Source: Mixta tenebrionis (GTDB lineage: Bacteria > Pseudomonadota > Gammaproteobacteria > Enterobacterales > Enterobacteriaceae). Taken from it: DNA of 64,000 nt. The translations under genes were made by a program, and so were the position numbers. Location of the stretch: NCBI RefSeq assembly GCF_006517625.1, contig NZ_VHQI01000006.1, positions 62,001 through 126,000 on the forward strand, in the 5' to 3' direction. Position 1 is the first letter of the stretch. Each line of letters begins with the position of its first letter. The notes under the pieces were generated by a model. That model worked only from the letters and a program-made list of their open reading frames with translations, did no database searches and was not told where the DNA came from. This document shows positions 20,783-31,664 of the stretch, in pieces.

Positions 20783-21079
20783 TTAATAAAATTCGATAAA
20801 TGATTGGACTTCAATACAATCCAGACAGACGAATACATAAATCATTCCGCAATCTGCAATGCAGTAGTTATCATTAATTGAGTCTAACTGCGCATAAAAT
20901 GTCATTTGTTCACCACACTCTGGACAATCAGGCCAGATACCGCCCTGAATAAAATCGGGAGTGCCGCCTAATTTATGACGAGAGCCAATTGGTTCAGGCG
21001 CCTTTTTAAATTTAGGTAAGGCTTCAGCCTTTTTAGTCAGAGGATGAGGTATCAGCTGGAAAGGTGGAATTTTTTTCAT
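20783..21079 (-). CDS. Orphan YwqG/DUF1963-like small protein (immunity candidate)
   Basis: A 98-residue soluble protein. The segment LGGTPDFIQGGIWPDCPECG, with a following QMTFYAQLDSI, looks like the C-terminal part of YwqG/DUF1963 proteins, a fold common among immunity proteins of polymorphic toxin loci. Cys pairs CPEC and CLDC could bind a metal. AGGAAG lies 8 nt upstream of the ATG, so the gene looks expressible. It sits right after a broken Rhs 3' end, which suggests an orphan immunity gene left when its toxin module was displaced. Family assignment is from motif memory, and the immunity role is inferred from context. Confidence 0.6.
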   Translation of the reverse strand: MKKIPPFQLIPHPLTKKAEALPKFKKAPEPIGSRHKLGGTPDFIQGGIWPDCPECGEQMTFYAQLDSINDNYCIADCGMIYVFVCLDCIEVQSFIEFY

Positions 21080-21248
21080 TAATTTACTTCCTGTGTAGGT
21101 AGATATCTGCCTAACTAAATCCTGAGATAACTATTAATTTATTTTCGATGAAAAGCCAGGTTCTGGCGCACGGCTACTACAAAACTATTATTAATAGCAG
21201 CGGGGCAGTTCAGGCAAGTGAAATTTATTGCGTACTGATAAAAAAGGG

Positions 21249-21428
21249 TTATACCGGATAATCCGCTGGGTTCCGGCGGATAAAACTGTCGCCGTGTGGA
21301 TTGTAGTACCGGTAGCGGCTGTAGTGCAAACCGGTCTCTTTATCATCATGCTGCTTCTGATAACGCAGTGAATGGCCGTTGAGGTGGGGCTGCTTGCCGG
21401 GCAGGGTGCCGCCGTCCTGCCAGAATCA
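21249..21428 (-). pseudogene. Remnant of an Rhs core 3' end
   Basis: On the minus strand a frame reads HLNGHSLRYQKQHDDKETGL then HYSRYRYYNPHGDSFI before a stop at 21249-21251. It parallels the end of the intact Rhs core (QYYDKETGLHYNRYRYYNPH then SGSFISQDPIGL). DNA at about 21285-21350 is nearly identical to 23930-23995. The copy has lost the DPxGL boundary and any toxin tail and has an upstream in-frame stop at 21426-21428, so it is dead. It marks an older Rhs C-terminus displaced by recombination at the core. Confidence 0.8.
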
Positions 21429-21439
21429 GGTAATTTCAC

Positions 21440-22552
21440 TCAGATTGATAGTTTGCTTTTAAATAATTAATCGATCCGGTCTGGCGCTTAAATCTGTTAT
21501 TTTTTTAGCTAATAATATTTTTATCAGGCGAATAGAAAAAATATATCTACATAGATTGTATATGTATAATAAAAAAATCATCTTCTTTACGATGAAAATG
21601 TTTTTATTTGGATGTGCCTTATTCCATTTTCACAGTAAGGTCTATGTCTTTTATATACAAATGCTTCGTCATGGTAAATTCCACCGTAGAAATAGCTTTT
21701 GTGAAATTAATCCTCTCTTTGATTATTAATAAGAGGCTTCTCAGATAAAATGTCCATTTAATACCAAATACACAGGATAGAATAAAGAAATACTCTGGTA
21801 AATTGATTTTTTTAAAAGAGAGAAGGTTTTCTGATGTCATGAATGGAATAGTTATAAAGTACGCACAGAAACCTATCATGTCTGGTTCTCTTTACTTTTC
21901 TCCACAGGATAAAAACTATTTCACCGACTTTGTTATGGATATGATTTTGCCTGAAAAATTATTTTGTGTAATATCTTCTTCTTTTGAAGAGAAAGAGTTG
22001 TTTTTTTAATTCAACAGAATATGTTTCGTCGCTATATCCAACAATTTCATGGGCGTCTTATAAGATATTCTATAGGAAATTATTTCCCACATCATTTTTT
22101 ATTTTTTTTAAGATCATTCAAGCTTTCACCTGTTTAGTATATTTCCTAAGGGCGTCTTTTATTTCATTATTTAGAATAGACTGAAATTATTTAATTTATT
22201 TTAGTATAATAATTTCCTCAATTAGCTCTTCGTTACGTCCCCTCCCTTAACTATTATAACCTAGATAGTTACCATGAAATGGTCTGTCTAACTTTATCAA
22301 TTCATTGATGAATTTTTAAATGCCTTGTGAAAATTCTCAGAAATTAAATTTAGTAAAGCTTGCTAATAACTTTATCCTTGAGGATACGGTTTATTGCACC
22401 GATGTTAATATTTTTTTATTTTCCTAAAATTATTGACGGGAATTTACACTGCAATTAACGAAAAGTATTGATGTATAAATATATTATTTTCTCAAGCCAG
22501 GATTGTATTATTTATGAGTTTTCCTAAATCTTATTTCCAGTTTATATCCAGG
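21440..22552. other. AT-rich, decayed stretch without an intact gene
   Basis: About 1.1 kb, far richer in A+T than the flanks. The best frames are an 86-codon minus-strand frame at 21619-21879 (hydrophobic, starting MIGFCAYFITIPF), and upstream of it, in another minus frame, the segment DAHEIVGYSDETYSVELKKQ (about 22000-22060), with stops and shifts between them. This looks like the wreck of one or more toxin or immunity cassettes. Plus-strand frames at 21803-22009 and 21984-22184 are equally unsupported. I do not call a gene here. Confidence 0.45.
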
Positions 22553-23449
22553 TCATGCAGATAGTCTTCGGCGAGCAATAATTTCATTTACTTCTTGCTG
22601 CGTGTGTGTGTAATGCTTTTTATTTGGATAGAAAGTTATTCTTTCAATATGGGGTATTTCCAAGGCTAAAGCAATATTGCCATCAATCAGTTCATCGAAT
22701 CCAACTGTTTTTAAGTTCGGCATGTAACGGATAAAGTCAAGGGAATCGACCCTGTTTAATCCAAGCTGTTCTATAGAACAATTACCTTTTAAGCATGAAA
22801 AGTTAACCATTTGCTTGCTATTTATAATAAAAACTCCATTGAGCTTTTTTAACGCATCTATTCCTGATAAATTTAGCAGCTTCGTACATCTTATTAAATG
22901 TAATTTTTCTAAATTTTCACAACCAGATAAGCCATCTAAGCTTCTGATTTGTGATTGTGTTATTTTTAATTCCCGCAAATTAGGGAAGTCTCCGAAGAAA
23001 CCAAAATCATTAGTATTTAAATGCCATAACCAAAGGTTTCTTAAATTAGTTAGCGCGCTAAAGTTAGAAAATTTCTTTGAATATGTTGCTGTTAAATTAG
23101 TTAGCTTGCTGAAGCGATTAAAATCTATTGAGATACCCTTAACATGTATTGTTAAAGAGGTTAGTTTAGATAGTGCATAAAGTGGAGAGAAATCCTGATC
23201 TGGTGAAAACTTTATATTAGGGCCGATAGCCAACTCATCTATACTCCTAACCCTGTCAAGGAGAGAAAAATCAATGTTTACCTGTTGAGTTTGAGAAAAT
23301 GAGTCTGCTTTTAAATAAAAACCATTACAATTTAACTGAGTGGCTAAAAAAACCCCTTCAAGATATTTATTATGTTCGGCGCTAATAATTCTACGCCCAT
23401 CTTTATTTATAAAGTTTATTCCCTCTGGGAAATCATCTTTTTTCATCAT
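22553..23449 (-). CDS. Leucine-rich-repeat protein, candidate immunity protein for the Rhs toxin
   Basis: A 298-residue cytoplasmic protein with no signal peptide. From about residue 90 to 265 it holds repeating LRR units such as LTNLRNLWLWHL, FPNLRELKITQSQI and CENLEKLHLIRCTKLLNLSG. The start is set at ATG 23449: GGAGG (23456-23460) lies 6 nt upstream, whereas ATG 23455 touches the SD. The ATG overlaps the rhs stop (TAATG), so translation is coupled. A gene immediately after an Rhs toxin tail is normally its cognate immunity gene; LRR and other solenoid repeats are known among predicted immunity proteins. A+T content is high, like the toxin tail. The function is inferred from position. Confidence 0.75.
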   Translation of the reverse strand: MMKKDDFPEGINFINKDGRRIISAEHNKYLEGVFLATQLNCNGFYLKADSFSQTQQVNIDFSLLDRVRSIDELAIGPNIKFSPDQDFSPLYALSKLTSLTIHVKGISIDFNRFSKLTNLTATYSKKFSNFSALTNLRNLWLWHLNTNDFGFFGDFPNLRELKITQSQIRSLDGLSGCENLEKLHLIRCTKLLNLSGIDALKKLNGVFIINSKQMVNFSCLKGNCSIEQLGLNRVDSLDFIRYMPNLKTVGFDELIDGNIALALEIPHIERITFYPNKKHYTHTQQEVNEIIARRRLSA

Positions 23450-26400
23450 TAACATCCTCCACTTTTCTTTGAATTCTTGGCTCTTGCTTTTTTATCTGCT
23501 TGAAATTTTGCTTCAAGTGCATTTGCATTTTCGTTTACTTGAGATTTCATATTTGAATTTGCAGCAGACTTTTTCAATCCTGGTGAATTAATTTCATTCA
23601 ATAAATTTGGATTTGTTCCAAAATTATTTCTTTGCATAATTTCATTTTCAACCATAAACCCCATATCATTTGATTGGAAATCTATATGTGCTTGCCCAAC
23701 CACTTTAGGTGTAGGGGAACCGGGAGGTAACGAACGTGTAACTTGTGCTAGTCTCTCTTTAATCGAATCGTTCATTCTTTTCAATGTTCCCTTACCGATA
23801 TATTTATCCCCTGTGTCGAATTCAAAAATATAAGCACCGGTTAACCCCAGCGGATCGATCCAGCTAATCGGATTCGGCGCATACTGATAAACATTCACCC
23901 CGCCCAACAGCCCTATCGGGTCCTGGCTGATAAAGCTGCCGCTGTGTGGATTGTAGTACCGGTAACGGTTGTAGTGCAAACCGGTCTCTTTATCATAATA
24001 TTGTCCCTGAAAGCGCAGCGGGTTATGCACCTGCTGCGTCAGGCGTTTTACTCCGCCCCAGGCATGGTAGTGCGCCTCCCAGGTGATATTGCCGTCGCCG
24101 TCGGTCAGGCGCAGCGGGCAGCCGTTGAGGTCGTTGTGATAATAGTGGATGCGCGCATCGGGCTGCGTGCGGTCGGGCAGCAGGGCGAAGGGAATAAAGC
24201 TGCCGGGCCGGTAAACGTACTCCTGCATGGCAGGCCAGAGCGCGCGCGCCGCCAGCCTGCGCTGTGCGCTGGCTTTAGCGTCGTCAGGGTCAGCGGCGGC
24301 GGTGTCCGGCAGGCCGGGCGTGCTGTTGGGGCGAGTCACCTCGCCAAGCAGGGCGTCGCCGTCCCACCAGAACCAGGTGGTTTCCTGCGCGTTGCGCTTG
24401 AACACCCGCCGCCCGGCGGCATCATAGCCATATTCGGTGGTGTGATGCTTATCGCGCGAGCCGCGCAGGCGTTGGTTGCCGTCCCAGCGCAGCTGGCGAT
24501 GGTTGCCGTCTCGGTCGCTTTGCCGGCGCAGATTGCCCGCGCGGTCAAACAGGTAGCGCACGCCGTGCAGCTCGCCTTCGCGCCACCAGCCCTGCGGGGT
24601 ATCATCCTGCGCCCGTATCTGCGTCAGCAGCTGGTTGCCGGCGGCATCCTGGATAAAACGGGTGACGCGCCCTTCCGGACAGGTGTGAGCCAGCAGCCGT
24701 CCCACCGGATCATAGCTGAAGTATTCGTGTCCCAGCCGGCTGTCGCTGCGCTCTTCCGGATTGCCGTTGCGGTCGTAACGGTAGCCGGTACTGAACAGTC
24801 CGGCGTCGTTACGGCTGACCGCCTGGGAAACCAGCCGGTCGCGTGCGTCATAGCGGTAGCGACGGCTCAGCGTTTCGCCCAGCGTTTCGTCCTGTAGTCT
24901 GCCGCAGGCGTCATAGGCAAAGCGGCTGGTTTCGCCGTCCAGCGTGACGGCGACGGGCTGCCCGCGCTGGTTATAGCGCCACTCCGTTCGGTGACCGGCA
25001 TCGCTGTGCCGGCTGATGCAGTTGCCTGCGGCATCGTAGCGCCAGTAGATGCCCAGTCCGTCCTGGCGTTCCTCCGTGAGGCGGCCTGCAGCATCATATT
25101 TGCGCGTAACTTCGCGCCAGGGATTAAGCAGCGCCGTCACGCGGCCGCAGCGGTCATAGCGGAAACGCTCTTTCAGCGTCTGCTCTCCGTCCCGGTAGCG
25201 CTTCTCGGTCAGCCTGCCCATGCGGTCGTGGCGGTATTCGGTGAGCTGCCCCAGCGCGTCGCTGCGTGCAACAAGATTGCCCGCCTCATCGTAGCGATAG
25301 CGGGTCTGCTGACCATAATAATCTTCGGTTTGTATTATTCTGCCCGCCCCGTCGCGCCGCAGCCGGTAACGCTGGCCCAGTTCGTTTACCACCGCCGTCA
25401 GCTGCTCTTCGCTGTCATATTCACAGCGCACCGTTTTACCGTCCGGCGTGGTGCGGCTGGTCAGCACGCCCATGCCGCTGTAGCTGAGCCGGGTTTCGCC
25501 GTTCAGCTCGTCCACATGGCGGCTGGGATTATCACAGGCGTCCCAGCCCAGCGTCTGCACGCTGCCGTCCTCCGACTGCCAGCGGATCAGTCGTCCTTTG
25601 GCGTCGTAATCCCAGCTGCAGTGGCGGCCCATGGCGTCGGTACGCTGGCGCAGCAGGCCACGGCTGTCGTAGCGGAACGTGGTGCGTGCGCCTTCGCCGT
25701 CGGTGTGGCTGCGTAAGAAGCCGTAACCATCGTATTCCAGCTGCGTTTCGCATCCGGCCGGATCCATGCTGAAGATAAGATCGCCGAAATCGTTGTAGCG
25801 GTAGATGGCGATCTGCCCCAGCTCATCGGTCTGGCTGATGAGCTGGCCGTCGCGGCTCCATTCATACAACCTGCTGGCGCCTTCTTCATCGGTCTCTTTT
25901 ATCAGGCGGTTATCAAGCCAGACGTAAAGGCGCCTGCTGCGATCGGGATGGGTCAGGGTACAGAGATTGCCGGCATCGTCCCATTCAAAACGGGTTTCGC
26001 GGCGTGCGGCATCCACCTGGCTGACGGGACGCCCGACTTCGTCGTAGCGATAGCGCGTGGCGCTTCCTTCAGGATTGATCTCACAGATCGGTAGCCGATC
26101 TGCATCAAACTGGATCTGCGTGCGGTTGCCCAGCGAGTCGGTAATTTCCACTTCGTTGAGCAGATCGTGATACACAAAGCGATAATCGTACAGCCCGTCA
26201 TCGCCCCAGGAATGGCAGACTCTTTGCTGTTCATCGTACTGATAGTGAAAGGTCAGGCCGCTGCGCAGGCTATGACTGATCATTTTTCCCTGCTGCCAGC
26301 CGTAGCGCCGGCACAGGCCGACCGCATCCTCTTCGGCTACCAGCTGGCCGCGATCGTCATAGTGATAGCGCGTCAGGGGCAGGTTGCACTGGCTGTCTTC

Positions 26401-27591
26401 ATCACTGAAGGTCAGCGCCGTCAGGCGATGGTTCTGCCACTGTGCCTGTAGCGTTCGTCTCCGCTGGCCTGCGGCATCCCACTCTACCAGCTGTTGTAGT
26501 TCTCCATTGCGGCGTACAAACTGCCAGCGGTTACCAACCAGATCGCTTATCGCCTCCAGCAGCATCGGCTTTTGCGGCAGCGGCTGTGTGGCGGGATAGC
26601 GAAAGTAATAACGTTTCCCTTCTTTGGTTTCCACCACCAGCTGGTTGCTGTCCGTTTCCGCTATCTGCCAGACCACGGCACCGTCCACCAGCTCCATCAC
26701 GGCATGTTCACGCCCTGGCGCGGCGGGAAAGCCGGGAAAGACGGTCAGGGTCAGCGCTTCGTGAAAGAAAAGCGCATCCAGTTGCGCATCGTAGCTAAGC
26801 TGTATATCCGCCGGCGTTTGCCAGCCTTCGCCGCATGACGGGGCGAGCAGCGTAACCGGAGAAAGAGAGGAGCGATAATAGCGCGTCCACTCCAGCGGCA
26901 GCCGGCCCGGCAATTCGAAATCCTGATGCTCAATGAGCACGCTACCGTCACGAACATCTACCGGATCGCCGAAAACCCACCGACATATCCATGAGTTTTC
27001 GCAGTTCATATTAGGCAAGATCTTTTTACGTAGCGCTTTGGCCGGACCGGAGCGGATCAGTTTCTTCAAACCCCACAACCCCGCCTTCATCGCCATCGCA
27101 ACCAGATTGATGGTTGAGGGGCCGCCCACTTCCACGCCGTTAGGCAGCGCAAGGTTCAGCGCCAGCGGCAGTTCGAGGGAGAGGGGTTTCGGCTTTGTCG
27201 CCTTTTTCAGGCGAAACGGGGGAACAAGGCCAACAATATTACAGTCCAGCACCGGTTCTGAAAAACGGGACATGGGATCACCGTCAGCAATAACGGTTTT
27301 ACTGCCCATAAAGATTTCGTCAGTGATTTGCGGCCCGGCGGTCATTTCCGCTACCGGTATCCATGAACCGCCTACCGGTATATGTATGCCCATTCCGCCG
27401 GTGCCTGCCGTACCCCGGCGTAGCCAGTTAATGGTTACCGTGCTGCCGATAATGGGAATATAATCAAAAGGATCGAATACCGCCGCGATACGCGGCGTGG
27501 GGAGCGGCACCGGCGTGGGAGAGGGCGGGATCAGATAGGTATGAACATCAACGCCCAGTTGCGGATCGGTATGGCAGGTTGAGTGGGGCAT
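23449..27591 (-). CDS. PAAR-Rhs polymorphic toxin with GIY-YIG-like C-terminal nuclease
   Basis: A 1380-residue T6SS effector. Order: PAAR-like N-terminus (about 1-150, with GGMGIHIPVGG and GDPMSRFSEPV), DUF6531 start (GDPVDVRDGSVLIEHQDFEL, about 207), an RHS/YD repeat shell (about 330-1150), the conserved core end DKETGLHYNRYRYYNPHSGS and IDPLGL (residue 1250), then a 130-residue variable tail. The tail has AYIFEF, KYIGKG, KRMNDSI, an ENEI glutamate and PNLLNEINSPG, the pattern of a GIY-YIG (URI-type) nuclease, so DNA cleavage is predicted. Core DNA is GC-rich while the tail is AT-rich, showing module exchange. AGGGAAG precedes the ATG. It is delivered with the VgrG encoded upstream. Confidence 0.9.
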   Translation of the reverse strand: MPHSTCHTDPQLGVDVHTYLIPPSPTPVPLPTPRIAAVFDPFDYIPIIGSTVTINWLRRGTAGTGGMGIHIPVGGSWIPVAEMTAGPQITDEIFMGSKTVIADGDPMSRFSEPVLDCNIVGLVPPFRLKKATKPKPLSLELPLALNLALPNGVEVGGPSTINLVAMAMKAGLWGLKKLIRSGPAKALRKKILPNMNCENSWICRWVFGDPVDVRDGSVLIEHQDFELPGRLPLEWTRYYRSSLSPVTLLAPSCGEGWQTPADIQLSYDAQLDALFFHEALTLTVFPGFPAAPGREHAVMELVDGAVVWQIAETDSNQLVVETKEGKRYYFRYPATQPLPQKPMLLEAISDLVGNRWQFVRRNGELQQLVEWDAAGQRRRTLQAQWQNHRLTALTFSDEDSQCNLPLTRYHYDDRGQLVAEEDAVGLCRRYGWQQGKMISHSLRSGLTFHYQYDEQQRVCHSWGDDGLYDYRFVYHDLLNEVEITDSLGNRTQIQFDADRLPICEINPEGSATRYRYDEVGRPVSQVDAARRETRFEWDDAGNLCTLTHPDRSRRLYVWLDNRLIKETDEEGASRLYEWSRDGQLISQTDELGQIAIYRYNDFGDLIFSMDPAGCETQLEYDGYGFLRSHTDGEGARTTFRYDSRGLLRQRTDAMGRHCSWDYDAKGRLIRWQSEDGSVQTLGWDACDNPSRHVDELNGETRLSYSGMGVLTSRTTPDGKTVRCEYDSEEQLTAVVNELGQRYRLRRDGAGRIIQTEDYYGQQTRYRYDEAGNLVARSDALGQLTEYRHDRMGRLTEKRYRDGEQTLKERFRYDRCGRVTALLNPWREVTRKYDAAGRLTEERQDGLGIYWRYDAAGNCISRHSDAGHRTEWRYNQRGQPVAVTLDGETSRFAYDACGRLQDETLGETLSRRYRYDARDRLVSQAVSRNDAGLFSTGYRYDRNGNPEERSDSRLGHEYFSYDPVGRLLAHTCPEGRVTRFIQDAAGNQLLTQIRAQDDTPQGWWREGELHGVRYLFDRAGNLRRQSDRDGNHRQLRWDGNQRLRGSRDKHHTTEYGYDAAGRRVFKRNAQETTWFWWDGDALLGEVTRPNSTPGLPDTAAADPDDAKASAQRRLAARALWPAMQEYVYRPGSFIPFALLPDRTQPDARIHYYHNDLNGCPLRLTDGDGNITWEAHYHAWGGVKRLTQQVHNPLRFQGQYYDKETGLHYNRYRYYNPHSGSFISQDPIGLLGGVNVYQYAPNPISWIDPLGLTGAYIFEFDTGDKYIGKGTLKRMNDSIKERLAQVTRSLPPGSPTPKVVGQAHIDFQSNDMGFMVENEIMQRNNFGTNPNLLNEINSPGLKKSAANSNMKSQVNENANALEAKFQADKKARAKNSKKSGGC

Positions 27592-27613: not shown

Positions 27614-27742
27614 TCAGATAATTCTTCTCAGCGCATTTAAAAACGATCTGGCTTCATTGCCATATTCTTCACCCATGCAGCTCACCAGAATCATCATTAC
27701 GACAATGGCGCCGCCGATAATCACTAATCGCTTCTTTGTCAT
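27614..27742 (-). CDS. Tiny predicted lipoprotein between TPR protein and Rhs
   Basis: A 42-residue protein. A basic N-terminus (MTKKR), a hydrophobic run and the lipobox LVSC (Cys at residue 22) predict a lipoprotein with a mature tail of about 21 residues, GEEYGNEARSFLNALRRII after CM. ATG 27742 overlaps the stop of the TPR gene as ATGA and has AAAGGAAG 5 nt upstream; the longer frame from 27838 lies inside the TPR gene and is rejected. It is sandwiched in the vgrG-TPR-rhs operon, so a role in effector loading, delivery or self-protection is possible, but no known family was recognised. Confidence 0.65.
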   Translation of the reverse strand: MTKKRLVIIGGAIVVMMILVSCMGEEYGNEARSFLNALRRII

Positions 27743-29346
27743 AAAACTTCCTTTAATTCGCTGGCCGGCATTTCCGTCTGTAGCAGCTGCTCGGTTGATT
27801 TTGGCTCCGGCGTCATAAATGACAGCGGCGCATCCCATTCAGCTGGCTCTTTATCCAGCGGATGGGCGATATCGGGGATGCCGCTCCAGTTAGGCGCCAG
27901 CAGTTCGCGTCCGGCAAAGATAATGCGCTGGAATGGAATACTGGCCTGACGTATCAGTGATTCCCGCTGCTCACAGCAGTGCAGAAACGCCTGTTCCATC
28001 GCCTGCTCCATCCGCTGCTGCAGCCGGGCGGTTTTTTCCGGCGCCGGATATTTTCCCAGCGCCAGCGCCTCTTTTTCGGCCTTACGCTGTATATCCGTCA
28101 GCTGGTTGCAGTACGCCTGGGCTTTTTTTTCCAGCGCCTCAGCTCTGGCTTTATCCTGCATGGTCAGCAGCGCATGCAGCGTGATGCCGAGCGTGGAAAA
28201 CTTACGCTCCGCCAGCGGGAGCTGCGTCGCCGCCCGTATCGCTTCGGTATAGAACTTTGTCGCCAGCGTGGTATGGCCTTTGCGCTGATAGCAAAAGCCC
28301 GCCATGCGGTAACCTTCGATAACATATAGCGGATGCGGTACGCGCTGCGCCTCGGCGGCGGCGCGCGCGTAAACCTCAGCGGCCTGCTCATAGCGCCTGG
28401 CGGTAAACCAGGCGCCTGCTTCGCCAAATAAACTTTGCGTAATTAGCTGGTGTTTAATCGCCGGCTGTTCGATCTGCACCGCTCGCTCCGCCGCCAGCCG
28501 GTAGGACTGTACCGCCCTGGGGATATCCTGCCCCTTAAGCCAGGCGCCGGCGATAATGCTGTGCATAACCACCTGCTGTTCCGGCCATCCTTTTTGCTGC
28601 GCCAGCTCCAGCGCGCGCTGCGCGCGCTCGGTAACCTGCTGCGGCGTGCCGCGTTGCAGCAGTACCATACTGTCGGTCATATAGCGACGATAGAGAAAAG
28701 TCTCGTTATCCTCGGTGCTCTGGCTGGCCACTTCTGTTATCAGCGTATGCTGCTGGAGATCGGGTATCAGCTTTTGTATGTCGTGCGGCCGGGCTTTTTC
28801 CAGCGGACGCCAGCATGGATTGCTGTGGCTGTGAAGCAGCATAAATCGCAGATTGGCGGGCCAGCTGCTCTGCAGCGCCAGGTCAATCCACTGTTGCCAG
28901 GAGCTATGCAGGCTGACGGCGTCGGGTGAAAGGGCTACCACAAGGTAACGGAACTGCGCCTGATAGTAGTGGGCAAAAGAGGATAACGCGGCCATAAAGC
29001 CATCAACCGAATCGCATTCCGCCAGCGGCGGGTAGCGCCAGTCTGTCGCCAGCTGTTGCTCAGCCAGCGCTTCTTTGCTGTGTTGATAGTTTTCCAGCAG
29101 CTCATGGCGTAGCGCGCGGCTGTAGCCAAACAGCGTATCGAACGGCGCGCGAAAAGTGATAAACAGGTCAGGGAGATCGTATTCCGTTTCTTGCTGCTGC
29201 AGCGCCGTAAAGGCCTGGATAAGCGACTTCGCATCATCTTCCACTTCCCAGAGAAAAATGCGGGCGTCACGGCCGCTCTGCTCCAGCCACAGCCGATGTA
29301 AAATCGCCATCCGTCGTTCAACCGGATTTCTTTCTACCGTCGCCAT
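27739..29346 (-). CDS. TPR-repeat protein of the VgrG-Rhs operon, putative effector adaptor
   Basis: A 535-residue cytoplasmic protein. The N-terminal 200 residues look like an alpha/beta domain without Walker motifs. About residues 230-400 form helical TPR-like repeats, e.g. ERAQRALELAQQKGWPEQQ, AVQSYRLAAERAVQ, QAAEVYARAAAEAQRV and LATKFYTEAIRAA, followed by a charged coiled segment. It stands exactly where T6SS loci carry loading adaptors or chaperones (EagR/DUF1795, DUF4123, DUF2169), none of which is visible here. By position it may load the Rhs effector onto VgrG; this is inference. Its 3' end overlaps the small lipoprotein gene by 4 nt. Confidence 0.8.
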   Translation of the reverse strand: MATVERNPVERRMAILHRLWLEQSGRDARIFLWEVEDDAKSLIQAFTALQQQETEYDLPDLFITFRAPFDTLFGYSRALRHELLENYQHSKEALAEQQLATDWRYPPLAECDSVDGFMAALSSFAHYYQAQFRYLVVALSPDAVSLHSSWQQWIDLALQSSWPANLRFMLLHSHSNPCWRPLEKARPHDIQKLIPDLQQHTLITEVASQSTEDNETFLYRRYMTDSMVLLQRGTPQQVTERAQRALELAQQKGWPEQQVVMHSIIAGAWLKGQDIPRAVQSYRLAAERAVQIEQPAIKHQLITQSLFGEAGAWFTARRYEQAAEVYARAAAEAQRVPHPLYVIEGYRMAGFCYQRKGHTTLATKFYTEAIRAATQLPLAERKFSTLGITLHALLTMQDKARAEALEKKAQAYCNQLTDIQRKAEKEALALGKYPAPEKTARLQQRMEQAMEQAFLHCCEQRESLIRQASIPFQRIIFAGRELLAPNWSGIPDIAHPLDKEPAEWDAPLSFMTPEPKSTEQLLQTEMPASELKEVL

Positions 29347-29378: not shown

Positions 29379-31664
29379 CTATGCGTTCAGCTTAATTTTT
29401 TTACCGTCCATCGATATGCCGCTTCCATCAATGACGATGACCGACCCGCTGGCCTTAATAGATATTTCACCGCTTTTAATAGTGATACCGGTACCACCTA
29501 CTTCCAGGGTAATGCTACCGCTGGCGCTTTCGCTAAGATTACCGTTGACGGTGCGGGTATCTTCTCCGGTAACCGTTAAATTACGGCCCGCCTGTAGCGT
29601 TACTTCCTGCGGACCAAGCACCGTAAACTTATGCTTAGCTTTAAAGGTTTCCTGAACCACACCGTTAACGGTAGTTTCTTCCGCGCCGGTAATGATCTTG
29701 GTGCGCTTGCCGGTAACGTCCAGCTTTTCCTCGCCTTTAACGATAGCCGTCCTGTTACTGATTACGGTGGTCTCCTGATTACCCTTTACCTTAATCTCCT
29801 GGTTGCCTTTCACCGCCACTTCGCGCTTACCATCCACCGCTAACCGGTCATCAATCTTCACGTTGCGCGTGCGGTTCTTTTGTACGGTGATGGTTTCATC
29901 GCCTTCCACCGTCGCTTTCCGGTCTTGTTTGATAGCGATGGTCTCTTTGCCGCTGACCTGCTCGTTACGGTTACCGCTAATTTCCAGCGTTTCGTTACCG
30001 GCAACCTTTTCGCTGCGGTTACCGGCGATGGTAATGGTTTCGTTGCCGTTAACGGTTTCGGTGCGATCCTGCTCAATGGTGGAGGTTTCATTCCCGGCGA
30101 CGTTTTTCGTGCGGTTGCTGCCGACGGCATGGGATTCATCGTTTTTAACGTTGGTATCCATATTGCGTTCGGCCTGAATGAATACCTGCTCGGCTCCCGC
30201 TTTGTCTTCAAAGCGCAGCATATTGGCGTTGCCCGGCGTGCCGTCTTTGGTGCGGCTCATAAATCCCATCTGCGTTGCCGCCGCCGGCAGCGACCAGGGA
30301 GGCATGCTGGCTTCGTTATAAACGCGCCCGGTGATGATCGGACGATCCGGATCGCCGTTGATGAAATCGACGATAACCTCATCGCCCACGCGTGGGATCT
30401 GCACGCCGCCGTAGCCCTGGCCGGCCCAGGCGCTGGAAACGCGTATCCAGCAGGAGCTGGTATCATCCCCTTTAGCTTCGCGATCCCAGTGGAATTTCAC
30501 CTTTACCCGGCCAAAGCGGTCGGTCCAGATCGATTCGCCGGCCGGTCCCACCACCCTCGCCGTTTGCGGGCCGTAGGTACGCGGCCACTGCGTTTTCGCT
30601 TCAGGGCGGAACGGAATATCCGCCGGCAGCGCGGTGAAATTAAGCTGATGGATTGAGGTGCCGCCGCTGCCGCTGGCGTAGGGGTTTTCTTCAAGCTGGT
30701 AGTCAACGGCGGTAATCAGATAGTCGCGGTTATCACTAAGCACCGGCGCGTTAATCAGCGTAAAGGTATAGCCGGGGCAGATGCCGATAGCCGTGGCGGT
30801 AGCATGAATCTGCATATGATCGACCGCCCAGCGCTGCTGGCGAATGCGGGCATAAAATTCGCCGTGCCCGTGCTCTACATAACGTCCCGGCCAGTCGTAA
30901 ACGTCGATATTGCCCGGCTTTGGCGAGGCCGGGTTCTGCCTGGCCTGCAGCAGCCAGGCGTGCGGCTTACGAAAATCGTAGTCGTCAACGCTGTAAAGGC
31001 CCGGCGTGACGCGCATTTCCGGCTGCCAGCGGGAAACGCCCTCCGCGTCCGCCACGCCGCCGGTGGCGGTCTGATAATAGGGAATCGCTTCATAAGCGGA
31101 GAAGGGCTTATGCGCATCGGGGCCGTCGGTTAACACCAGCGTATGGTTGCCGTCTTCATGGCGGAAGAAATAGCTGATGCCCTCCAGCTCCATCAGGCGG
31201 CTGATAAATTCCAGGCTGCTTTCCTGATACTGCACGCAATATTCCCAGCTGCGGTAGTTGCCGGTCAGGCGATCTTCCACGTTAACCTGGTACTCGCTCA
31301 GCAGGGTTTTAACGATCAGCGGTACGGTGGTTTCCTGAAAGATGCGCAGATTGCGATCGCGCTTCATCGGCCACAGATCTGATTCCAGCGTCAGGGCGTA
31401 AGAGGTATAGCGGGTGCCGTCCAGCTCCTGCGAGCCTACCACGACGCGGGTAATTTTGCCGTTCAGCCAGCGGAATGACGCGCTGTGCTGCAGCGGGATT
31501 TGAAGGGTGAGCGGCTGTCCCAGCAGGGTGGCGTTGTCAATGCGCGGATGAGAGCTGAGTAACGTTACGTTAAGGCTGAAAGATTCAGACAGCGCTTCGC
31601 GTCCGGACAGCTTCCAGAATAGTAACTCTTCTGCCGGAGAGCGGGCGATAATTCGGTTAAGCAT
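29379..31664 (-). CDS. vgrG: Type VI secretion spike protein VgrG (TssI)
   Basis: A 761-residue trimeric spike component. The N-terminal gp27-like region (with LEFISRLMELEGISYFF) is followed by the gp5 OB-fold (about residues 365-450; IWTDRFGRVKVKFHWDREAK and CWIRVSSAWAGQGYGG), and a C-terminal triple-stranded beta-helix made of many short repeats of the NETxxI..NRxxxV type (about 500-720). No catalytic extension follows the helix, so this is a structural VgrG that should carry the PAAR-Rhs protein encoded three genes on. No other T6SS structural genes lie in the window, so this is an orphan vgrG island. Confidence 0.95.
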   Translation of the reverse strand: MLNRIIARSPAEELLFWKLSGREALSESFSLNVTLLSSHPRIDNATLLGQPLTLQIPLQHSASFRWLNGKITRVVVGSQELDGTRYTSYALTLESDLWPMKRDRNLRIFQETTVPLIVKTLLSEYQVNVEDRLTGNYRSWEYCVQYQESSLEFISRLMELEGISYFFRHEDGNHTLVLTDGPDAHKPFSAYEAIPYYQTATGGVADAEGVSRWQPEMRVTPGLYSVDDYDFRKPHAWLLQARQNPASPKPGNIDVYDWPGRYVEHGHGEFYARIRQQRWAVDHMQIHATATAIGICPGYTFTLINAPVLSDNRDYLITAVDYQLEENPYASGSGGTSIHQLNFTALPADIPFRPEAKTQWPRTYGPQTARVVGPAGESIWTDRFGRVKVKFHWDREAKGDDTSSCWIRVSSAWAGQGYGGVQIPRVGDEVIVDFINGDPDRPIITGRVYNEASMPPWSLPAAATQMGFMSRTKDGTPGNANMLRFEDKAGAEQVFIQAERNMDTNVKNDESHAVGSNRTKNVAGNETSTIEQDRTETVNGNETITIAGNRSEKVAGNETLEISGNRNEQVSGKETIAIKQDRKATVEGDETITVQKNRTRNVKIDDRLAVDGKREVAVKGNQEIKVKGNQETTVISNRTAIVKGEEKLDVTGKRTKIITGAEETTVNGVVQETFKAKHKFTVLGPQEVTLQAGRNLTVTGEDTRTVNGNLSESASGSITLEVGGTGITIKSGEISIKASGSVIVIDGSGISMDGKKIKLNA

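Follow-up and report, generated by a model that had tools for sequence, protein, structure and literature searches.

A GIY-YIG/URI-like tail on an Rhs protein of Mixta tenebrionis and its overlapping leucine-rich repeat gene: a probable nuclease toxin and immunity pair

Introduction

URI nucleases are among the toxins described at the C-terminus of Rhs proteins, as Tox-URI1 and Tox-URI2; the partners tabulated for them (Imm14/26/44/51 and Imm9/39/12/44) are not leucine-rich repeat (LRR) proteins, and the motif given for Tox-URI1 is Y, YxG, R, [RK]xxE, N (Zhang et al., 2012, PMC3482391). Here we analyze a stretch of 64,000 nucleotides from Mixta tenebrionis (NCBI RefSeq assembly GCF_006517625.1, contig NZ_VHQI01000006.1, positions 62,001 to 126,000 of the forward strand; hereafter “the window”), in which the gene for an Rhs protein with a putative GIY-YIG/URI nuclease tail overlaps a gene for an LRR protein. 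The arrangement is like that of Tox-URI1 and Tox-URI2 (PMC3482391), with a URI/GIY-YIG fold predicted at the Rhs C-terminus and the candidate immunity gene adjoining it; the LRR partner is what differs. LRR proteins adjoining polymorphic toxins have themselves been predicted to be immunity proteins, and the window protein, a predicted solenoid encoded directly behind the toxin, fits this Imm-LRR pattern; the tabulated entry for Imm-LRR, however, gives “next to T5SS toxins” (type V secretion system) and polyimmunity loci, and names no pairing with URI toxins (Zhang et al., 2012, PMC3482391).

The PAAR-RhsA-GIY-YIG candidates of Salmonella SPI-6 likewise combine an Rhs effector of a type VI secretion system (T6SS) locus, a GIY-YIG tail and a bicistronic immunity candidate, but their partner is given as “No/CdiI” and LRR is absent from the main text of both reports (PMC10469887, PMC11669294). 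The nearest precedent is the lower-GC Rhs/VgrG6 region of Stenotrophomonas rhizophila, which also encodes LRR-domain proteins, one of them (WP_141058140.1) tabulated as “Nuclease immunity”; it differs in that neither GIY nor URI occurs in the main text, and the passages on this region do not specify which nuclease is meant (PMC13340143). GIY-YIG effectors are already known, namely Nte4 of N. cinerea (PMC8263058), the TANFOR toxins (PMC7073777) and Bae2 of Bacteroides (PMC12694586), and LRR is absent from the main text of these three papers; PMC10113328 concerns a different GIY-YIG protein. The main text of two papers on the T6SS in the bee gut (PMC5727410, PMC8125069) contains none of the terms GIY, LRR, leucine, URI and nuclease, and the open-licence PMC literature searched, as far as its texts go, did not yield the pairing of a GIY-YIG toxin with an LRR immunity protein. 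Toxins of the Rhs-URI kind are already on record, and so are immunity proteins built of LRRs; the literature searched did not show the two paired, as they are here in two phyla.

Results

The Rhs gene (23449..27591, minus strand) encodes a protein of 1380 amino acids (aa; Pfam RHS_repeat, E 3.2e-76) with the layout of an Rhs polymorphic toxin. Domain scans place the cage/core at residues 208-1250 (23842..26970, minus strand), comprising DUF6531, YD repeats and an RHS-associated core (Rhs_assc_core, residues 1175-1250) that ends in DPLGL, following the DPxGL pattern; the variable C-terminal tail of 130 residues (1251-1380; 23452..23841, minus strand) begins where Rhs_assc_core ends and GC content falls. 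In 500-base windows the GC content is 0.55-0.68 across the Rhs core and drops to about 0.32-0.40 across tail and LRR gene, as is usual with exchangeable toxin cassettes, and in the loci of its relatives the tail occurs behind differing Rhs cores and also as displaced cassettes. An earlier note, made from the letters of the window alone, had read the tail as a GIY-YIG-like nuclease: the motifs it named (AYIFEF, KYIGKG, KRMND, ENEI, LLNEINSPG) do occur in that order after IDPLGL, which ends at residue 1250, and the next gene, joined by TAATG, does encode leucine-rich repeats. This gene (22553..23449, minus strand; 298 aa) probably starts with an ATG at 23449 that has one base in common with the Rhs stop codon TAA, the junction reading TGTTAATGATG; an alternative start at 23455 would give 300 aa, with the open reading frame (ORF) ending at 22553. 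Its product exceeds the cut-off of Pfam LRR_4 (33.6 versus 27 bits) and is predicted with confidence to form an LRR solenoid (mean pLDDT 88.9).

Among 394 genomes of the order, 42 gave a match to the tail at E up to 10, and only M. tenebrionis itself and two others fell below 0.001, the latter being the two real relatives (E 8.9e-11 and 7.7e-8); the remaining matches (E 0.027 and above), L005 included after a look at its ORFs, were taken as chance. Of 295 genomes sampled from the family, only that of the window contained the tail (E up to 0.001), and scanning the species collection with the single window tail returned no relative. With an alignment of three tails as query, the same collection gave seven loci, in Pectobacterium sp. 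PL152, two Flavobacterium, two Gilliamella and two Chryseobacterium, of which we took the two Gilliamella loci to be the relatives from the order search. One further relative came from a class-level search (G808), in which two other matches (L029 and L030, E 0.0033 and 0.007) were discarded as unrelated frames after inspection, and 296 genomes of the family of Chryseobacterium added two more, G1199 as the third copy of Chryseobacterium type and G1254 (L048) as a partial copy. Plasmid collections held no convincing relative (four chance-level matches at E up to 10), a phage collection gave two chance-level matches only, and viral contigs gave none.

The window tail and eight relatives were aligned (alignment A3, in which position + 1248 is the Rhs residue number). 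Invariant in all nine rows are, among others, Y6, Y16, G18, K19, G20, R24, R32, H54, E67, N84 and N87, corresponding to Y1254, Y1264, G1266-K1267-G1268, R1272, R1280, H1302, E1315, N1332 and N1335 of the Rhs protein. These include the two N-terminal tyrosine motifs of the superfamily (Y6 and Y16-x-G18, invariant also when the diverged tail described below is added), its arginine in the first helix (R24), its glutamate in the second (E67) and its asparagine towards the end (N84, N87); by analogy with I-TevI and UvrC we take the R, E and N positions to be the catalytic ones. An AlphaFold model of the tail built with A3 (pLDDT 81.9, pTM 0.77) has the predicted order E4-10, E15-19, H22-38, E49-56, H60-73 (beta-beta-alpha-beta-alpha) and then a long C-terminal helix; the tyrosine motifs lie on strands 4-10 and 15-19, R24 in helix 22-38 and E67 in helix 60-73. 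VIA-align, which merely re-aligns the candidates of Foldseek (160 chains), placed I-TevI first (Z 4.7, 80 residues aligned, 3.3 A) and UvrC next, with Z below 5 throughout, a range in which the tool warns that a common arrangement only may be meant. Rows 1-7 were I-TevI, UvrC and HIGLE, and GIY-YIG nucleases or UPF0213 filled 15 of the 21 rows listed; HIGLE, Slx1 and UPF0213 belong to the GIY-YIG proteins. Such scores, obtained with a predicted model, are modest, and what matters is their coherence. From the invariant residues, the predicted fold and I-TevI and UvrC as best structural matches, we delimit a GIY-YIG/URI-like nuclease core at residues 1252-1338 (23578..23838, minus strand).

Unlike Tox-URI2 proteins, the nine tails of A3 have no match to Pfam PF15653 (Tox-URI2), and all nine stay below the cut-off of PF01541 (GIY-YIG); a profile comparison with Tox-URI2 was precluded by the rarity of its members (1 of 247 genomes of the order). 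The window tail alone had no match among PDB sequences, PADLOC returned nothing for either the Rhs or the LRR protein, and PHROGs nothing useful. A bridge is provided by a second, diverged tail in Gilliamella intestini (L066:2939-3256, minus strand), which lies above the PF01541 cut-off (24.4 versus 22.6 bits, profile positions 2-40 of 78) and aligns pairwise with A3 in hhalign (probability 96, E 4e-9) over 76 columns, which run from just ahead of the first tyrosine as far as INSPG; its gene is followed by an LRR gene matching our LRR profile A4 (hhalign probability 97.9, E 4.3e-13). In the alignment enlarged by this tail (A5), Y6, Y16, G18, K19, E67, N84 and N87 stay invariant. Among nine PDB matches of the A5 profile, eight were GIY-YIG chains (9u75, 9u7u and six UvrC chains, of which five are apparent variants of one protein, with equal length and consecutive entries), at E 4.2e-4 to 0.043; a reversed-sequence control gave one unrelated chain, at E 0.044. 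The profile match that the earlier note had proposed as a check was thus absent for the window tail alone and present for the A5 profile and for L066 against PF01541, and the assignment of the tail to the GIY-YIG/URI type is supported by residues, predicted fold, profile matches and this bridging homolog.

Each of the 12 toxin copies found has an LRR or LRR-like gene directly 3' of its tail. The copies, from Enterobacterales, a further gammaproteobacterium and Bacteroidota, are as follows: the window copy; Gilliamella L033, L035 and L066; Pectobacterium L031; Flavobacterium L032 and L034; the Chryseobacterium-type copies L036, L037 and L052; the gammaproteobacterium L028/L053; and the distant Bacteroidota copy L048. 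It is this recurrence, together with the invariance of the motif residues in nine tails, that raises the observation of tail and LRR gene above chance. In seven of eight pairs the two genes overlap by 1 or 10 bases or sit 4-5 bases apart, and in L028 the overlap would be 47 bases, with the first ATG taken as the start. Behind the Pectobacterium tail the LRR gene (L031:4623-5171, plus strand), which stands amid repeated Rhs tail cassettes, is interrupted, so that this copy is probably dead. The L048 tail has partial similarity only (E 9e-5; in hhalign, probability 95 over 35 columns), and the protein encoded next to it is matched by the LRR profile in hhalign (probability 94.7) while lying below every Pfam LRR cut-off; that neither protein passes a Pfam cut-off suggests a wider unmodelled family. 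At this locus (L048:1186-2482, plus strand) the diverged Bacteroidota tail carries YKYHGKGPINRM and the LRR-like gene comes next.

The tails of Gilliamella (Gammaproteobacteria) and Chryseobacterium (Bacteroidota) are 71-76% identical and their LRR proteins 61-62%, far above the 37-39% and 20-21% that they share with the window pair, and on these comparisons the likeliest course is that the tail-LRR cassette moved between phyla as a unit. Across eight pairs the identity matrices of tail and LRR protein correlate with r 0.93, a value inflated by close relatives and reached in 11 of 40320 permutations. The eight aligned LRR proteins measure 221-224 aa in the Gilliamella/Chryseobacterium group versus 291-322 aa in the other four. 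Net charge at pH 7 is +5.8 for the window tail and +5.1 for the window LRR protein, and is positive in seven of the eight LRR proteins; an acidic LRR protein serving as a DNA mimic was ruled out on this ground. The positive charge would be compatible with nucleic-acid binding, and so with an immunity in which the LRR protein binds or shields the target, be it nucleic acid or another factor, and leaves the toxin alone; however, tail and LRR relatedness shift in parallel, and the best-known role of LRR solenoids is as scaffolds for binding proteins, so that we regard shielding of the target as very unlikely, the least probable of the alternatives considered here.

When the ten genomes that carry the toxin were searched with the LRR profile, 12 matches resulted. 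Ten lie behind the tails that had led to these genomes, another follows the second Gilliamella tail, and the last, a weak one (E 4.3e-4), is within a frame of 1814 aa. A search that started from the LRR protein, in 335 genomes of the order, gave at least 28 matches at E up to 1e-8 in at least 23 genomes, counts that are lower bounds because in many genomes just seven first-look candidates were scored. At least five were close copies (E up to 7.4e-87), three behind a tail and two without a toxin, both of the latter in one genome of the family of Gilliamella (G391). Both of these LRR genes are intact and lie within Rhs cassette arrays, and only the last few toxin codons are recognizable in front of them: with ten tails as queries, the 15 kb around each gene contained no toxin beyond a scrap of 13-15 residues immediately in front of the gene (E 0.02 and 0.012; two other tail matches had E 0.37 and 0.70), whose DNA, judged by eye, still matches the end of the toxin gene at 34-43 bases. 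G391 apparently belonged to the sample of the order searched with the window tail, and gave no match there. Retention of an LRR gene after the toxin has been lost is what one expects if the gene confers immunity. In the arrays themselves (L098 and L099; G391 C7 and C5), short Rhs core ends follow one another in long series, every one with its own distinct tail and a small gene behind it, and each array holds one LRR gene without its toxin.

Among the other 23 matches of this search, one (L095, the same place as L066) adjoins a GIY-YIG tail. Fourteen of the 28 loci were inspected; in 12 of the 14, a search with the ten tails found no toxin at E 0.01. The weaker relatives inspected (E 1e-27 to 1e-8) are mostly general LRR proteins away from such a toxin, and the LRR fold by itself is therefore not diagnostic. 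Plasmids of Planococcus and Priestia also gave LRR matches (29-30% identity), with no toxin of the tail's family in the two stretches examined.

LRR proteins also act as effectors (XopL is a weak match, E 0.12), and the LRR gene is co-directional and overlapping with the Rhs gene, as might be expected of a second secreted effector or of an adaptor for loading the tail. Yet the gene lies downstream of the tail, recurs behind full-length Rhs genes and displaced Gilliamella tail cassettes alike, and in its toxin-less copies sits among cassette arrays, all of which makes an effector or adaptor very unlikely. That the LRR gene is an immunity gene is supported by the conserved linkage and by the two copies without a toxin.

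Upstream of the Rhs gene lies a gene for VgrG, the T6SS spike (29379..31664, minus strand; Pfam Phage_GPD, 6.7e-84, Gp5_trimer_C and Gp5_C), and three TssC-type sheath genes are present on other contigs of the genome. Between the VgrG and Rhs genes a 535-aa protein is encoded (27739..29346, minus strand), possibly an adaptor, with a weak TPR match below the cut-off. Residues 1-120 of the Rhs protein had no match in the Pfam scan, so a PAAR or similar spike domain was not seen there. In the low-GC stretch downstream of the LRR gene, a remnant of an Rhs core end (21190-21440, minus strand) reads, by eye, LRYQKQHDDKETGLHYSRYRYYNPHGDSF, and is probably an older displaced cassette; a 98-aa ORF (20783-21079, minus strand) with a sub-threshold match to DUF1963 (21.5 versus 23 bits) is possibly the old immunity gene of such a cassette.

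Discussion

We consider it probable (roughly 0.82) that the Rhs protein of M. tenebrionis is a toxin, probably loaded on VgrG and delivered by the T6SS, with a GIY-YIG/URI nuclease as its payload, and that the LRR solenoid encoded by the overlapping gene protects the producer and its kin. The analysis establishes the gene layout, the conservation of the putative catalytic residues, the predicted fold, the recurrence of the pair and the existence of LRR genes beside a mere remnant of the toxin; T6SS delivery, nuclease activity, a cytoplasmic location and neutralization by direct binding we infer. In such a mechanism the Rhs cage on the VgrG spike would carry the tail into a neighboring cell, probably through the T6SS, where the released tail (residues 1251-1380) would act as a small metal-dependent nuclease, cutting the DNA or possibly the RNA of the competitor with an active site that, by analogy with I-TevI and UvrC, may consist of two tyrosines, an arginine, a glutamate-bound metal and an asparagine. 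In the producer the LRR solenoid would bind the tail directly, most likely covering the active site or the substrate face; a block of the nuclease by the LRR surface, as proposed in the earlier note, is plausible.

Several results weigh against this interpretation. The window tail alone has no nuclease or GIY-YIG match in Pfam or NCBIfam, the other eight tails of A3 have no nuclease match in Pfam except RE_endonuc at E 0.085 in one, and hhalign finds no match between the tail and the small GIY-YIG protein of the same genome. The A3 profile gave three GIY-YIG chains among four PDB matches, at E 0.17-0.37 only; Foldseek ranked UPF0213 and I-TevI first, at E 0.63 and 0.81, so that its best E is 0.63, and the VIA-align Z-values are low. 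In A5, R24, R32 and H54 lose their invariance (R24 is not aligned as Arg in L066), and the UvrC chains matched look largely redundant. As regards the pairing, linkage of tail and LRR gene would, taken by itself, also fit a pair of co-effectors, close relatives inflate the correlation between tail and LRR identities, and the charges show no consistent complementarity, the window tail and LRR protein both being net basic.

Since the window tail alone is only weakly similar to known nucleases, it might have the GIY-YIG fold and be no nuclease toxin, but a binding domain or a degenerate enzyme with the LRR protein as its folding partner. The putative catalytic residues are, however, invariant across phyla in the nine close tails, and LRR genes exist without a toxin, which is unexpected of a folding partner; we hold this explanation to be distinctly unlikely, if the least so of the alternatives weighed here.

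A nuclease toxin with an LRR immunity protein would join two predictions that have been separate, URI nucleases as Rhs toxins and LRR proteins as immunity proteins, and the tail belongs to a subfamily missed by current Pfam models. Evenly poised, in our judgment, is the broader proposition that this is an uncatalogued URI toxin subfamily with its own LRR immunity lineage, whose cassette has moved between Bacteroidota and Gammaproteobacteria, with solenoid length following the toxin subclade and the repeats forming an evolving recognition surface. Some twelve natural pairs of toxin and immunity gene, graded in their divergence, and two toxin-less immunity genes offer material on how a solenoid may inhibit a nuclease and how its specificity changes; if a co-evolving URI-LRR lineage is indeed at hand, it would amount to a natural system of nuclease inhibitors that are repeat-based and retunable.

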